Positions 7,774 through 32,330 of a DNA stretch of 34,230 nucleotides are shown here, piece by piece (the first letter of the stretch is position 1; each line of letters opens with the position of its first letter). The translations under genes and the position numbers were made by a program. Origin of the DNA: Treponema sp. (GTDB lineage Bacteria > Spirochaetota > Spirochaetia > Treponematales > Breznakiellaceae); assembly GCA_031268385.1 (NCBI GenBank), contig JAIRXH010000142.1, positions 1 to 34,230 on the forward strand, written 5' to 3'. The notes under the pieces were generated by a model. That model was not told the origin of the DNA. It did no database searches and saw only the letters and a program-made list of their open reading frames with translations.

Positions 7774-7802
7774 ATCATAGCAATGTTGATATAATTGATC
7801 AA
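7774..7802 (-). promoter_or_regulatory. sigma70-like promoter of tRNA-Ala
   Basis: On the minus strand, TTGATC (complement of 7797-7802), exactly 17 bp, then TATGAT (complement of 7774-7779). The -10 lies about 50 bp before the mature tRNA 5' end, which implies a short 5' leader for RNase P to remove. Confidence 0.65.
7787..7795 (+). promoter_or_regulatory. Extended -10 promoter placing a leaderless start at 7804
   Basis: TGATATAAT carries a consensus TATAAT (7790-7795) with a TGn extension. The ATG of the glycosyltransferase is only 9 bp downstream of the hexamer and has no Shine-Dalgarno sequence. Transcription would begin almost at the start codon. It interleaves with the divergent tRNA promoter. 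Confidence 0.5.
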
Positions 7803-7803
7803 T

Positions 7804-8940
7804 ATGGTTTCGCTGCTGTTCAATATTTTCCGTTTCGGCTTTGCCCTGGTCTTTGTCGCTCTCCACGCGGCCCTTATGGCGGGTTTTCTCCGGGAATGGA
7901 CGCGGGACCGGAAGGCCGCCGGGAAAACACGGAAAAGGGAGGATCTTCCCAGGGTATCGGTGATTGTCCCCTTCCGCAACGAAAGCCTTCGGATAGGGGG
8001 GCTCCTGCGGACACTCGGAGATCAGAATTATCCCGGAGCCGAGTATATTTTTATCGACGACCGTTCCACCGACGACGGCCCCCTCGCGCTTGCCCGTTTT
8101 ACGGAGGGAAGGAAGGACTGCCGCGTCATCACTCTTGCCGAGAATCCGGGGCCAAATCACAAACAGTACGCCATAGGCCGGGGCATAGAGGCCGCCGGGG
8201 GAAACCTGCTTCTTTTTACGGACGCCGACTGCGAAGTGCCCCCCGGCTGGATTCTGGCCATGGCCGGACGCATGGCGGATGAACGGGTGGGGGTGATCAT
8301 AGGGCCGGTTTTCAGGAAATACGGCAGGGGCTTTTTTTACTTTTATCAGTGTATCGATCACGCGATGCGGTACATGTACCTGGCCGCTTCCACGGGACTC
8401 GGCGCCGCCGGGGGCGGTTTCGGGAACAACCTTATCCTCCGCCGGGAATGCCTTGACCGTATAGGCGGCTACGGATCGGTACCCCCTTCGCCGACCGAGG
8501 ACGCCGCGCTTGTATCCCGCATCCGTTCCCTTTCGGGCTTTGAGGTCCGTTCGGCCGTCGGGAAGGACAGCCATGTGTTTACCCGGCCGGAACATTCCTG
8601 GGCCGCTTTTCTCAACCAGACGCTCCGCTGGAACAACGGCGGGCTGTTCAGCGCCGATCCCCTGACCCGGACAGGCTTTGGCGGCCTCATGATCTCCATA
8701 TCAATGGGGATCATCGCCATTCCCTTCCTGCCCTTCTTTCCGGGCCTGTGGCCGCTGCCGGCGGCGGTTCTGTGCTCCATGCTCATGAACACCGCCGCCG
8801 TCCTGGGCATGGGAAGCGTTCCCTGTGGAAACGCGGCGGGCTATGTTCTTCAGCTTCTCTTTACCCCTGCCTGGATGACGCTGCTTACCATACTGGGCTT
8901 TCTGGGTTTCAGGACGGACTGGAAGGGAAGCCGCTTCTGA
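7804..8940 (+). CDS. Family 2 glycosyltransferase, membrane-anchored
   Basis: This inverting GT-A glycosyltransferase of about 378 aa has an N-terminal signal anchor (residues 5-25) and three or so hydrophobic helices at the C-terminus (about 295-370), so the catalytic domain faces the cytoplasm at the membrane. Motifs in order: VSVIVPFRNES near residue 49, FIDDRSTDD near 83, the metal-binding FTDADCE near 137, PTEDAAL near 230, and the QxxRW-type QTLRWNNGG near 275. These place it with processive or lipid-linked GT2 enzymes rather than secreted ones. Donor and acceptor are unknown, and no polysaccharide cluster surrounds it. The start is taken at ATG 7804; a TTG at 7795 is in frame but lies inside the -10 element. 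Confidence 0.9.
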   Translation: MVSLLFNIFRFGFALVFVALHAALMAGFLREWTRDRKAAGKTRKREDLPRVSVIVPFRNESLRIGGLLRTLGDQNYPGAEYIFIDDRSTDDGPLALARFTEGRKDCRVITLAENPGPNHKQYAIGRGIEAAGGNLLLFTDADCEVPPGWILAMAGRMADERVGVIIGPVFRKYGRGFFYFYQCIDHAMRYMYLAASTGLGAAGGGFGNNLILRRECLDRIGGYGSVPPSPTEDAALVSRIRSLSGFEVRSAVGKDSHVFTRPEHSWAAFLNQTLRWNNGGLFSADPLTRTGFGGLMISISMGIIAIPFLPFFPGLWPLPAAVLCSMLMNTAAVLGMGSVPCGNAAGYVLQLLFTPAWMTLLTILGFLGFRTDWKGSRF

Positions 8941-13344: not shown

Positions 13345-14385
13345 TTATTCTTCCGTCTGGAAGGCCCTGTAGGAACTGCCCGCCTCATTGCGGAAGGGAA
13401 TGAATTTGACACCCATTCCGTTGTAGACATCCCGGCGGCTTATGGCGATGGAGCCTGATTCGGTCACTTCCTTTTTGACTTCCATGATGTACTGCCGGCT
13501 TGGGGGGCCCAGGGGCAGCACCATGATTCCACCCGGTTTAAGCTGCCTGAGAAGGGGAGGGGGTATGTGATCGATGGAACAGGTTACGATGATCTTGTCA
13601 AAGGGGGCGTATTTTTCCCATCCGTAATACCCGTCGTCCAGTTTACGGTTAATGGAGTTGTAGGAAGGGAAAGATTTTTCGAAATCCCGGTAGAGTTGAT
13701 CCGTTTCTATAAAGAGCGGTTTGATAATTTCTATTGTGTACACTTCGGTTGTCAGGTAGGAAAGTATGGCCGACTGATACCCGGAGCCGGTGCCTATTTC
13801 CAGGACTTTGTCGCCGGGCTGTATGTTCAGCGTGGTGGTCATCATGGCGACAACATCCGGGTCGGTAATGGTGGCCCCGTATCCTATGGGAAGCCAGGTA
13901 TCGGCGTATTCGAAACCCCGGTTCGCCGCGCGGACAAAATGTTCGCGGGGGACAAGGAGAAAGGCGCGCAAATCTTCCGTCCGCTTTAATTCTTTTGAAT
14001 TCTTGACAAAACTTTCCGCCAGTTCCCATCTTTTTTCAAGAAAATCGGGGGAATCGCTCCTGTTGGCCTGCATCCAGGAAAGCCAGGCCTCCCTGGTTTC
14101 TATGGGCATGGACTGGGCAAATCCCGGACCGTTGTACTTTCTGACTCCCGGAAGCGTTTCATAGGCAAGACCGTACTCCGGGCTGTCCTTTCCCTTTTCG
14201 GCGGCTATTTTGGTAACTTCCTCCACCGCCGACCGCGCCGCCACCTCTTCATACGCCGCGACCCGTTCCGATTTTGCGGAAACCGCGAGGGGAAGAAGCA
14301 GGCCGAACAGGAAACCCAGCATGAGGCCGCTTACCATGATAATGACGTTAAAGGCAGAGACTGTCCGCCTGAAAAAAGAAAACAT
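13345..14385 (-). CDS. Membrane-anchored PCMT-like (protein-L-isoaspartate O-methyltransferase family) protein
   Basis: A 346-aa protein with an N-terminal hydrophobic helix (about residues 10-36) and a SAM-dependent methyltransferase domain. The PCMT pattern is clear: a helical lead-in with LVPREHFVRAA, then VLEIGTGSGYQSAILSYL (motif I, near residue 185), VYTIEIIKPL (motif post-I), YAPFDKIIVTCSIDHIPPPLLRQLKPGGIMVLPLG (motifs II-III). Classical PCMT is soluble and about 210 aa, so the membrane anchor and about 140 extra N-terminal residues are unusual. Repair of isoaspartate in envelope proteins is an inference. The ATG at 14385 is chosen because a strong promoter has its -10 over the earlier in-frame ATG (14403), which cannot lie on that transcript. 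Confidence 0.82.
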   Translation of the reverse strand: MFSFFRRTVSAFNVIIMVSGLMLGFLFGLLLPLAVSAKSERVAAYEEVAARSAVEEVTKIAAEKGKDSPEYGLAYETLPGVRKYNGPGFAQSMPIETREAWLSWMQANRSDSPDFLEKRWELAESFVKNSKELKRTEDLRAFLLVPREHFVRAANRGFEYADTWLPIGYGATITDPDVVAMMTTTLNIQPGDKVLEIGTGSGYQSAILSYLTTEVYTIEIIKPLFIETDQLYRDFEKSFPSYNSINRKLDDGYYGWEKYAPFDKIIVTCSIDHIPPPLLRQLKPGGIMVLPLGPPSRQYIMEVKKEVTESGSIAISRRDVYNGMGVKFIPFRNEAGSSYRAFQTEE

Positions 14386-14398
14386 ATCCGTGTGCTCA

Positions 14399-14427
14399 AT
14401 CATAGATTTTTGCGGAATGAATGTCAA
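14399..14427 (-). promoter_or_regulatory. Near-consensus sigma70 promoter of the PCMT-like gene
   Basis: On the minus strand, perfect -35 TTGACA (complement of 14422-14427), 17 bp, then -10 TATGAT (complement of 14399-14404). Start of transcription is expected near 14391-14393, only 6-8 nt before the ATG at 14385, so the mRNA is nearly leaderless. Confidence 0.75.
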
Positions 14428-29199: not shown

Positions 29200-30450
29200 T
29201 TATTTTCTGTTCTGGCGGCTCCAGTCGGCGACGCGCCGCTCCAGCGGGCGGATTTCGTTTCCGCCGCCGCGTATCCGTTCGTTGAGGTAGGGGAGGATCA
29301 CCTGTTCCTTGATGGCGGTCCAGTCGCGGGGGAGGATGTTGGGCGGTGAAAGAAAATCGCCGGGAGGCATGTGGTCAAGGAGGTGGGGGTAAAACCTTGG
29401 AAATATTCCCTCGGTAACGGTCCGCATTGCCGAAAAACCGCCGGCTATGCCGAAACTGGTTTCCATGAGACGGTTGTTTCTGCTTTTTTCCAGTATGCTC
29501 CGCTGCGTATCGGTCTGAAAAAACCAGCGGGTAAACGCGTTGGACGCTTTTTTTGCCCGGCCCTTTTTGCAGATGCCGTAATAGACGGTTTCCTCGTTTA
29601 AAGGGATCACGTTCTCTTCGGCAATCCACCTGAAATCCAGGGCCGGTCCCCCCGGCAGGGTAAAAAAATCGGCGCTGTCCATATAGGTAAAGAGAATGCG
29701 GCCCGAGAGGGCCAGTTTTTCAGGCGGTTCAAAAAAATACCTGAAGACAAAATCTTCTTCTTCCCGTACGCCGGTGTTCGCCCCGTTTGTCCATTCACAG
29801 GCCAGGCCGGCGGCCCTTTCAAGGGCGGCGGCATCCCACGCGACGGGAGAGGCCTCCCGGAAGGAAACGCCCGAAAGCGCCGTGATGATAAAAAGGAACT
29901 GGGTGTTCCACGCGGGGGAAAATCCCATACGGGTATACACGCCTCTTCTTTCGAGGTTGTACGCCTTTCCCAGCGCCTTTATTTCATCAAACCCTATGGT
30001 AAAAGGACTGGAAGGGCGCGTTTCCCTGTCCCTCGCGAAGACAAGGGCGGGAAGGTTGAACGAAACCGGAAGCAGGTACTGCTTTCCCTCAATGTTGCCC
30101 AGATCCAGGAGACGGGGGTAAAAGTCGTTTTTCGGCACAATGCCGTTGTTGAAAAAATCATCGAGAGACTTGAAATGGACGCGTGTGGAGGCGTTTTTGA
30201 GCCAGCTTCCCGCGATAATATCGGGCGGCCGTTTTCCCTCGGCGATCTCTTGCGACGGGAAGGGGAAATACCGGATTTCCACCTTGAACTGATCCTGGAC
30301 GGAGTTGAAGTATTCCGCGTACAGGGCGAATTCGGGCCTGTCTGTCCAGATGACGGCGACTTCGCTTCCCGGAGAACAGGAGAGGGTACACAGAAAAAAG
30401 GCAAGGAAAACGCCGGAGATCTGCGCGGCGGTAAAACGGCGGAAGGACAT
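29200..30450 (-). CDS. Orphan extracellular solute-binding lipoprotein
   Basis: A 416-aa family-1-like solute-binding protein. Its signal peptide ends in CTLSC (C25), a lipobox-like site. The order VAVIWTDRPEFALYAEYFNSVQD, PPDIIAGSWLKN, KQYLLPVSFNLPALVFARD and WIAEENVIPLNEETVYYGI matches sugar- or polyamine-type receptors. No permease or ATPase gene is adjacent, so it may serve a distant transporter or act as a sensor. ATG 30450 has AGGAT nearby, but the same bases form the -10 of a strong promoter (TAGGAT, 6 nt before ATG), so the transcript may start at or near the start codon. Confidence 0.85.
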   Translation of the reverse strand: MSFRRFTAAQISGVFLAFFLCTLSCSPGSEVAVIWTDRPEFALYAEYFNSVQDQFKVEIRYFPFPSQEIAEGKRPPDIIAGSWLKNASTRVHFKSLDDFFNNGIVPKNDFYPRLLDLGNIEGKQYLLPVSFNLPALVFARDRETRPSSPFTIGFDEIKALGKAYNLERRGVYTRMGFSPAWNTQFLFIITALSGVSFREASPVAWDAAALERAAGLACEWTNGANTGVREEEDFVFRYFFEPPEKLALSGRILFTYMDSADFFTLPGGPALDFRWIAEENVIPLNEETVYYGICKKGRAKKASNAFTRWFFQTDTQRSILEKSRNNRLMETSFGIAGGFSAMRTVTEGIFPRFYPHLLDHMPPGDFLSPPNILPRDWTAIKEQVILPYLNERIRGGGNEIRPLERRVADWSRQNRK

Positions 30451-30456
30451 GGTACG

Positions 30457-30485
30457 ATCCTATTTTGCACTTCCGCGCTTGTCAA
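30457..30485 (-). promoter_or_regulatory. Promoter of the orphan binding-protein gene, leaderless geometry
   Basis: On the minus strand, perfect TTGACA (complement of 30480-30485), 17 bp, TAGGAT (complement of 30457-30462), ending 6 nt before the ATG at 30450. The -35 shares five bases with that of the divergent promoter. Confidence 0.55.
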
Positions 30486-30507
30486 TCCTCGTCAAGAGGA
30501 CTATTAT
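30479..30507 (+). promoter_or_regulatory. Promoter of the 160-aa protein gene, leaderless geometry
   Basis: TTGTCA (30479-30484), 17 bp, TATTAT (30502-30507), ending 7 nt before the ATG at 30515. There is no Shine-Dalgarno site. It is back-to-back with the binding-protein promoter. Confidence 0.6.
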
Positions 30508-30514
30508 TATACCA

Positions 30515-30997
30515 ATGCAGATCAGAGACGCCAGGGTAATCAGGCTTATAGAACGGATAGGTGAGCATTACCGCACCAATATTTCCAACCGTTACATACG
30601 TCCCGCGCTGCTTCAGCTTCCCCTGGAAAAGCAGAGTCTTGATCTTATCGAAATACTCACGGAAAAGCTGGAGCAGTACCGCTACCAGGGTTTTCATCTG
30701 GATGAACTGTACCGTCAGATTGCCGCGGCCGCCCGCTTTGTTTCGCTGGCCAGGCGCGAACTTGTTCCCACGCTGAGGAACCGCCTGAGCGGCGGGGCGA
30801 ATTCCGGCCCCGACAAGGTGCTCCGCGACATGGCGGTGAACAATTTCGGCTCCAACCTTCAGCTTTTTGCCGATCTGGTTAACGAACTGTACGTGGGCCT
30901 TGTGGAACTGGACAAGGCCGACTCAAAGGGACACATGCCCCTGTACCTGCAGATGCCCGAACTCGGCGACATAGGCCGGCAGCTTGTCGGCGGCTGA
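30515..30997 (+). CDS. Small helical hypothetical protein
   Basis: A 160-aa soluble protein, predicted almost wholly alpha-helical, with no signal peptide or membrane helix and no family that I recognise. Notable stretches are VIRLIERIGEHYRTNIS near the start, LLQLPLEKQSLDLIEILTEKLEQY, FVSLARRELVPTLRNRLSG and FADLVNELYVGLVELDK, followed by a conserved-looking tail LYLQMPELGDIG. ATG 30515 is chosen because the promoter -10 ends at 30507; the frame is open upstream to 30305, but that part is antisense to the binding-protein gene. It diverges from the lipoprotein gene and converges with the aminotransferase gene. Confidence 0.65.
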   Translation: MQIRDARVIRLIERIGEHYRTNISNRYIRPALLQLPLEKQSLDLIEILTEKLEQYRYQGFHLDELYRQIAAAARFVSLARRELVPTLRNRLSGGANSGPDKVLRDMAVNNFGSNLQLFADLVNELYVGLVELDKADSKGHMPLYLQMPELGDIGRQLVGG

Positions 30998-31016: not shown

Positions 31017-32330
31017 TCATTTCGAAAGTTTTTCGGCGGCGCGGTAAATGGTCCGGTATATGTCCGGGATCTTCTCTTCGTCTATGCTTGAAAAGGCGAT
31101 TCGGAGGTAGCGTTCGCCCAGCGCTATTGTTCCTATACCGTGCGCCGAAAGCAGATGCCGGCGCAGGGTTTCGGCGTTTACCCCCCTGCAGAAGAAACTC
31201 ATAAAGTACCCCGAATTGAAGGGCAGGGGAATCAGCACGGGATGATCCGCGTTTTCTCCGACTATCGCCTTTACCCTGTTGTAACGGCTCCGCATCAGGC
31301 TGCGGTAACGCTCCTTCTCGCCGGGGGTACGGCTGTCTTCCGCCGTTTTGAGCATGAGGAACTGGGCCGGAGTATTGGACGAGGATACCGATGATCGTAT
31401 TGCCCCCGTGAGTTTCCTGATGAGGGCGTCGTAGTGACCGCCGTCAAGCCCCTTTGAGCCAAAGGTAAGGAAGCCTGTCCTCAGTCCCCATGTGTAGTCT
31501 TCCTTGATGGGACCGTCTATTTTAACGGCGAGCACCCTTTCATGGAGAGATGCGAAGCGGCCAAAGAGGGATTCCTGTATAATATCCTCCTCGTAAAAGA
31601 GGCCGAAGTAGGCGTCGTCGCAGATAACAAGAACATCGGCGCCTCCTTCGGCGGTCTTGTGGACAAGGGCCGCCAGGGCGCGGGCTTCGGCGCGAGTGGG
31701 CGAATAACCGGAAGGATTGTTGGGAAAGTTGAAGATGACGCGCACCGATCCCGACGCGGCCGCCTGGGCCAGCGCCTTCTCTATGGCGTCCATGTCAAGC
31801 CCGCTTCCCGGCCCGTCCGCTTCGGGGTTTGCGAAAAAGGGAATGCCCGCAAGTTCCGCCCCCCGGCGGACGCCGAAAATAAGCTCGTAATTGTCCCAGC
31901 AGGGATCGCTTGCGAGCACTCTGCCTCCCTTGCTGACAAACAGATCCGCCGTATAGGAAAGTCCCGCGGTAAGTCCGGGAACGACGACGGGAAGGGAAAT
32001 TCCCCCCGGATCAAGGGACGGGTTTTTCTGTATGATCAGTTCTTTCCAGACGGTTCTTGCCTTTTCCACTCCCGCGGTGGGGGCGTAGGCGACAGCCTCG
32101 CTGGGGCTAAGACCGGGCATGTTCTCCGCTATGACCGAAAAGATCAGGGGGGTTCCGCCGCTGTAGGCCATGCCTATGGTCGCGTCCGCGGTATGGGCGG
32201 ACTTTTTCGCTTCCGCGGACTGCGCAATTATTCCCCTGGGAAAATAAAGGCGGCGTCCCAGATTGGAAAGCAGCCGCCCCGCGACGGTTCCGTCAAGAAC
32301 TGAATTGAGCTCAAGAGCCAGATGATTCAT
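31017..32330 (-). CDS. PLP-dependent aminotransferase, class I/II
   Basis: A 437-aa cytoplasmic fold-I aminotransferase. VVVPGLTAGLSYTADLFVSKGG leads into the large domain, FNFPNNPSGYSP provides the conserved Asn-Pro, and ICDDAYFGLFYEED the cofactor-ring aspartate. K276 in KIDGPIKEDYTWGLRTGF is the likely Schiff-base lysine, and RYLRIAFSS carries the substrate-carboxylate arginine. The donor and acceptor cannot be read from sequence; the family includes aspartate, aromatic and alanine aminotransferases. No ribosome site precedes ATG 32330. Instead a six-codon reading frame (32347 down to 32327) ends in a TGA that overlaps the start as ATGA, so coupled translation is possible. Confidence 0.88.
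   Translation of the reverse strand: MNHLALELNSVLDGTVAGRLLSNLGRRLYFPRGIIAQSAEAKKSAHTADATIGMAYSGGTPLIFSVIAENMPGLSPSEAVAYAPTAGVEKARTVWKELIIQKNPSLDPGGISLPVVVPGLTAGLSYTADLFVSKGGRVLASDPCWDNYELIFGVRRGAELAGIPFFANPEADGPGSGLDMDAIEKALAQAAASGSVRVIFNFPNNPSGYSPTRAEARALAALVHKTAEGGADVLVICDDAYFGLFYEEDIIQESLFGRFASLHERVLAVKIDGPIKEDYTWGLRTGFLTFGSKGLDGGHYDALIRKLTGAIRSSVSSSNTPAQFLMLKTAEDSRTPGEKERYRSLMRSRYNRVKAIVGENADHPVLIPLPFNSGYFMSFFCRGVNAETLRRHLLSAHGIGTIALGERYLRIAFSSIDEEKIPDIYRTIYRAAEKLSK

Follow-up and report, generated by a model that had tools for sequence, protein, structure and literature searches.

Results

The window analyzed here is a 34,230-nucleotide stretch of Treponema sp. DNA (contig JAIRXH010000142.1, assembly GCA_031268385.1), and the element in question is a putative promoter region lying between two divergent genes. 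The plus-strand gene (30515-30997) encodes a 160-amino-acid (aa) helical protein to which no function could be assigned; it begins with ATG, is not preceded by a Shine-Dalgarno sequence, and its start is backed by alignment. The minus-strand gene (29200-30450) encodes a 416-aa solute-binding-protein-like lipoprotein, with an ATG start at 30450 and a PF01547 match that falls below the cut-off. Between them, the heptamer TTGTCAA (30479-30485) can be read on both strands, as TTGTCA on plus and as TTGACA on minus, so that the two -35 hexamers have 5 of 6 base pairs in common. Sequence reading and sigma-70 scoring place the -35 hexamer of the small protein at 30479-30484 (plus strand), separated by a 17-bp spacer from the -10 TATTAT at 30502-30507 (plus), a position conserved in relatives; the ATG (30515-30517) follows after 7 nt, and the predicted 5′ end is at 30514-30515. 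On the minus strand, the lipoprotein hexamer TTGACA (30480-30485) has all 6 consensus bases and is followed, again after 17 bp, by the -10 TAGGAT (30457-30462), 6 nt before the ATG (30450-30448), with a predicted 5′ end at 30450. An earlier reading of this DNA, made from its letters without database searches (hereafter, the sequence-only reading), had proposed two back-to-back leaderless promoters using one -35 region, and the bases and spacings that it gave, TTGTCA-17-TATTAT-7-ATG and TTGACA-17-TAGGAT-6-ATG, are exact.

The combination of TTGNCA and TANNNT at 17 bp is of the sigma-70 type, and the elements do not correspond to sigma-28 promoters. Both promoters score 10/12 and are within the top six sigma-70 matches of the surrounding 10 kb, where 19 such matches were found and 9.0 were expected from shuffles. 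Each promoter, judged by sequence alone, is thus only mildly unusual, and it is conservation and recurrence, rather than the local score, that set the two apart from chance. An inverted repeat in the spacer (TCCTC/GAGGA, 30486-30500) was dropped, as it is absent from most relatives.

Conservation of the shared element

A set of 91 non-redundant small-protein loci was assembled, in 67 of which the lipoprotein gene lies nearby in divergent orientation. These 67 divide into 12 in deep lineages and 55 in the family of the window and its close relatives. The heptamer is kept in 52 of the 55 and missing from the 12. On the strand of the small protein, its center base is T in 52/52 loci, so that TTGTCA invariably falls to the small protein and TTGACA to the lipoprotein. 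In this count, identity at the remaining heptamer positions results from the way the loci were selected; the flanks and the -10 bases were unselected, and among them the flanking G, C, T, and C are conserved at 81-96% and T1, A2, and T6 of the plus-side -10 at 92-96%. Furthermore, almost every locus has a spacer of 17 or 18 bp between the -35 and the -10 of the small protein.

Fifteen family loci, many of which belong to one clade, have no lipoprotein gene next to them; there the TTG half is retained and the CAA half is found in 3/15 versus 52/55 of the divergent loci (Fisher 1.7e-8; the P values in this study are descriptive). Conservation and this loss of CAA without the partner gene strongly support the shared -35. 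The element is split in two loci. In L052, GCTTGTCAATC occurs twice at a distance of about 42 bp, each copy serving one direction, and L076 has TTGTCAA for the lipoprotein and a separate TTGTAA for the small protein.

On the minus strand, AGGA within TAGGAT lies 7 nt ahead of the lipoprotein ATG, a spacing that would suit a Shine-Dalgarno sequence on a transcript starting farther upstream, as far as the window itself is concerned. In relatives, however, this position shows TAGAAT, TACACT, TATTAT, or TAACAT besides TAGGAT; T1, A2, and T6 are retained and AGGA is not. Moreover, lipoprotein loci with long leaders carry a distinct Shine-Dalgarno site (GGAGG in L123, GAGG in L124). A Shine-Dalgarno role of TAGGAT is therefore highly unlikely, and we rejected it on the evidence of the relatives' sequences in favor of a -10 element.

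Leaderless geometry and its replacement by leaders

For the lipoprotein gene, 42 of the 52 loci have a gap of 5-8 nt between the end of the -10 and the start codon, and 40 of these 42 starts are ATG. The small-protein side is bimodal across the 91 loci: the distance from the -10 to the start is 5-10 nt in 58 and 15-53 nt in 33, with none between. The short class comprises 55 ATG and 3 GTG starts, with a Shine-Dalgarno match of at least 5 nt in only 1 locus, whereas the long class has 27 TTG starts and such a match in 26 (short versus long, Fisher 3e-16 for the start codon and 4e-14 for Shine-Dalgarno matches of at least 4 nt). A 5′-terminal AUG is the favored leaderless start. Therefore, an ATG-rich, Shine-Dalgarno-poor short class is the pattern expected if these genes are truly leaderless.

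At the locus in the window, TANNNT precedes the start by the distances given above on both strands; the plus side has no Shine-Dalgarno sequence, and the AGGA of the minus side is not conserved as such. The sequence-only reading had named a longer 5′ leader conserved in relatives as what would speak against it. The window's genus and the outgroup families stay leaderless by these measures, whereas some relatives are leadered, with a clean switch to a Shine-Dalgarno sequence and TTG. Since the deep families f4 and f5, which are without the shared element, keep TATACT 6-10 nt ahead of ATG, the leaderless state looks ancestral and would have been kept by the window, with leaders gained later in some relatives. 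Overall, the comparison of relatives strongly supports a predicted double leaderless geometry.

A Shine-Dalgarno leader, mainly with a TTG start and with the promoter otherwise unchanged, was gained repeatedly (L037, L038, L042, L073, L078, L083, L087, L092, and L096-L124). A longer lipoprotein leader with the heptamer retained is seen in L102, L108, L113, L120, L121, L123, and L124.

Recurrence of the layout at other gene pairs

A search of 59 related genomes for the back-to-back layout yielded 27 distinct sites in 15 genomes, all of the window's family, and a reversed control yielded 0. A stricter pattern gave a similar outcome in 40 genomes. In a phylum sample, sites occurred in 29/296 genomes versus one reversed-control site; the layout extends beyond the window's family, and AT-rich genomes may contribute chance matches. 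The recurrent gene pairs, named by sequence inspection, include signal peptidase I with a PEGA/SUMF1-like protein in eight genomes, the window's own among them (G000:C8:1829-1898, locus L186), SecA with a propeller-like lipoprotein, a membrane protein with a TPR-type lipoprotein, and a RecO-like protein with a radical-SAM-like protein. One genome of the family, G033, has five divergent sites with a shared -35 (C23, C101, C111, C131, and C154), the most among the genomes searched.

These data also bear on whether TTGTCAA could chiefly be an operator for a DNA-binding regulator, its match to a -35 being secondary. The core GCTTGTCAATC is near-palindromic and its conservation extends past the hexamers, as an operator would have it. 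On the other hand, each side of the heptamer has a -10 at the distance proper to a -35, and the unrelated gene pairs carry TTGNCAA with other center bases and flanks. Besides, where the lipoprotein gene is missing, it is precisely the -35 of the absent gene that disappears. We therefore regard a primary operator function as improbable and a -35 used in both directions as the better account of the element.

Predicted leaderless genes in the genome and in the window

The distance between -10 motifs and start codons, for which the sequence-only reading had suggested a genome-wide survey, was examined in two genomes, over 400 kb of G032 and over 283 kb of the genome that holds the window. Strong promoters were far more frequent at 5-8 nt ahead of an ATG than at the majority of other distances, and their frequency peaked at 6 nt. 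The TANNNT excess amounted to ~2-5% of genes versus a Shine-Dalgarno excess of 18-30%. Predicted leaderless genes thus form a class that is small but real in these genomes. The further claim of four such genes in 34 kb held in part. The locus pair has the geometry, as does the gene starting at 7804, where TATAAT lies 8 nt before ATG with TGA ahead of it (an extended -10; 7786-7806) and no good -35. The gene at 14385 is not strictly leaderless: its promoter on the minus strand (TTGACA-17-TATGAT, 14383-14427) has the ATG 13 nt past the -10, which predicts a short leader of ~6-7 nt.

The two proteins and a paralogous locus

The small protein had zero sequence matches in Pfam, NCBIfam, or the PDB. 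A structure model predicts it as a confident helical bundle (mean pLDDT 89); the best structural matches of this model (Z 7.7, Foldseek E 0.67) are no better than those expected between unrelated bundles, and no fold was assigned. An in-frame upstream TTG start at 30479 was ruled out by stops before the ATG in L039, L041, L046, L048, and L050. Homologues are found across the order, the lipoprotein in 49/59 relatives and the small protein in 32/59, mostly as a divergent pair. The named relatives are chiefly Treponema metagenome bins, plus Breznakiella homolactica and Gracilinema caldarium.

The window's own bin contains a paralogue of the small protein (L002; G000:C152, 1124-1609) that is 65% identical. 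It adjoins another aminotransferase-like gene, convergent like the one at 31017-32330 of the window. A two-gene block may have been duplicated, or the bin may be mixed. The promoter of L002, TTGTCA-17-TACAAT-6-ATG, follows the same plan despite much divergence of the spacer.

Discussion

The present study describes what is very probably a compact divergent promoter in which two genes share one -35 element and both transcripts are leaderless. The housekeeping sigma factor would drive it, with the near-palindromic TTGNCAA serving as the -35 both ways and a separate -10 for each direction ~17 bp off, 5-9 nt before the start codon. Each transcript would begin at, or 1-2 bases from, the start codon and would be translated as a leaderless mRNA from a 5′-terminal AUG. 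Since five -35 base pairs are common to both hexamers, the geometry suggests exclusive binding: only one sigma region 4 could sit on the shared -35, and each polymerase binding event would pick one direction. The sequence-only reading had expected the lipoprotein and the small protein to be mutually exclusive or balanced in consequence, an outcome that may follow from such binding. We infer the exact 5′ ends, the exclusive binding, and the mode of translation from sequence and geometry.

Several points weigh against this interpretation. The conserved core GCTTGTCAATC exceeds the width of a -35 hexamer, and a second protein may read the core too. The loci are related and their counts are not independent. 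The over-representation of the shared spacing, which for exact 6-nt distances within the family gave 7 sites versus 18 over 31 separated spacings (0.58 per spacing; P ~3e-6), was measured against a separated-spacing control whose set of fixed bases was somewhat different. On the tree, leader state requires ~8 changes, at least three of them on well-supported branches, and one of the ~8 rests on L094, which was wrongly labeled as leadered. The AGGA ahead of the lipoprotein start is a potential Shine-Dalgarno sequence in the window. Finally, our literature search found no transcript 5′ ends or differential RNA sequencing for Treponema-type species.

Whether the sharing of the -35 has any regulatory meaning is a separate matter from the anatomy. 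The promoters may well be real and leaderless, with the shared -35 a by-product of compaction and the competition between polymerases too weak to count; we consider this about evenly balanced with a regulatory role. When one direction of an E. coli bidirectional promoter is lost, the other barely gains at basal strength, and in such promoters, which share a -10, competition matters only at high activity (PMC12825309). The un-sharing of the element in L052 and L076 and the one-sided gain of leaders with the shared element intact also fit a by-product. However, retention of the heptamer in 52/55 divergent loci of the family and its near kin with a fixed center base, giving the lipoprotein and the small protein the same two hexamers every time, weighs against a mere by-product. 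Furthermore, both promoters are fairly strong by consensus, which is the condition where competition appears. If the shared -35 does have regulatory meaning, it is conceivable, though we put it forward only tentatively, that Spirochaetia possess a class of doubly leaderless divergent promoters built on a palindromic -35 TTGNCAA. In such a class, the center base and the two -10s would set the ratio of the two genes, and the orientation of polymerase at a single sigma-4 site would be the regulated step, one put to use at gene pairs for secretion and the envelope (signal peptidase I, SecA, lipoproteins).

The locus would add to the shared -10 a second geometry in which a single core promoter element drives two genes, and its conservation across dozens of species is sufficient to ask whether competition is selected. 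It also offers a clean evolutionary series: one promoter appears to produce leaderless mRNAs starting with AUG in certain species and, in others, mRNAs that have a Shine-Dalgarno sequence and a UUG start. Strains in culture are available for at least the leaderless side. Besides, gene callers that expect a Shine-Dalgarno sequence may misplace the starts of such genes.

Leaderless messages have precedents. Leptospira interrogans, of the same phylum, has leaderless transcripts (PMC5243855), and the divergent pair prpD/Rv1129c of Mycobacterium tuberculosis has two leaderless messages (PMC3898074); neither a shared -35 nor a conserved double geometry is described in the portions of the two reports consulted. 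The leaderless genes of Deinococcus-Thermus resemble the present ones in lacking a Shine-Dalgarno sequence and in carrying TANNNT ~6-7 bp ahead of the start. They make up nearly one third of genes there and their -35 is dispensable (PMC12340547), in contrast to the ~2-5% of genes in the genomes sampled here and the clear -35 at this locus.

The bidirectional promoters described by Warman, Grainger and colleagues in E. coli and further prokaryotes (PMC12825309, PMC10268837) are alike in that both strands make use of a single short, near-symmetrical core element; the polymerases exclude each other there and are predicted to do so here. In those promoters, the divergent starts lie ~18 bp apart, with 7-25 bp around a shared -10 as the definition, whereas the window locus has a shared -35, separate -10s, and predicted starts ~64-65 bp apart, and it does not belong to that type. 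The closer likeness is to flgAP2/flgBP2 of E. coli, where one -35 hexamer is used on both strands, as it is at the window locus. There, the lower opening of one promoter upon activating the other is put down to polymerase competition (PMC12781870). These are sigma-28 promoters at a single locus, and the part of the report consulted does not mention a leaderless geometry. Earlier descriptions of shared -35 pairs may exist, subscription journals having been mostly outside our literature search, and the novelty of the present promoter lies in its conserved, recurring, doubly leaderless form.
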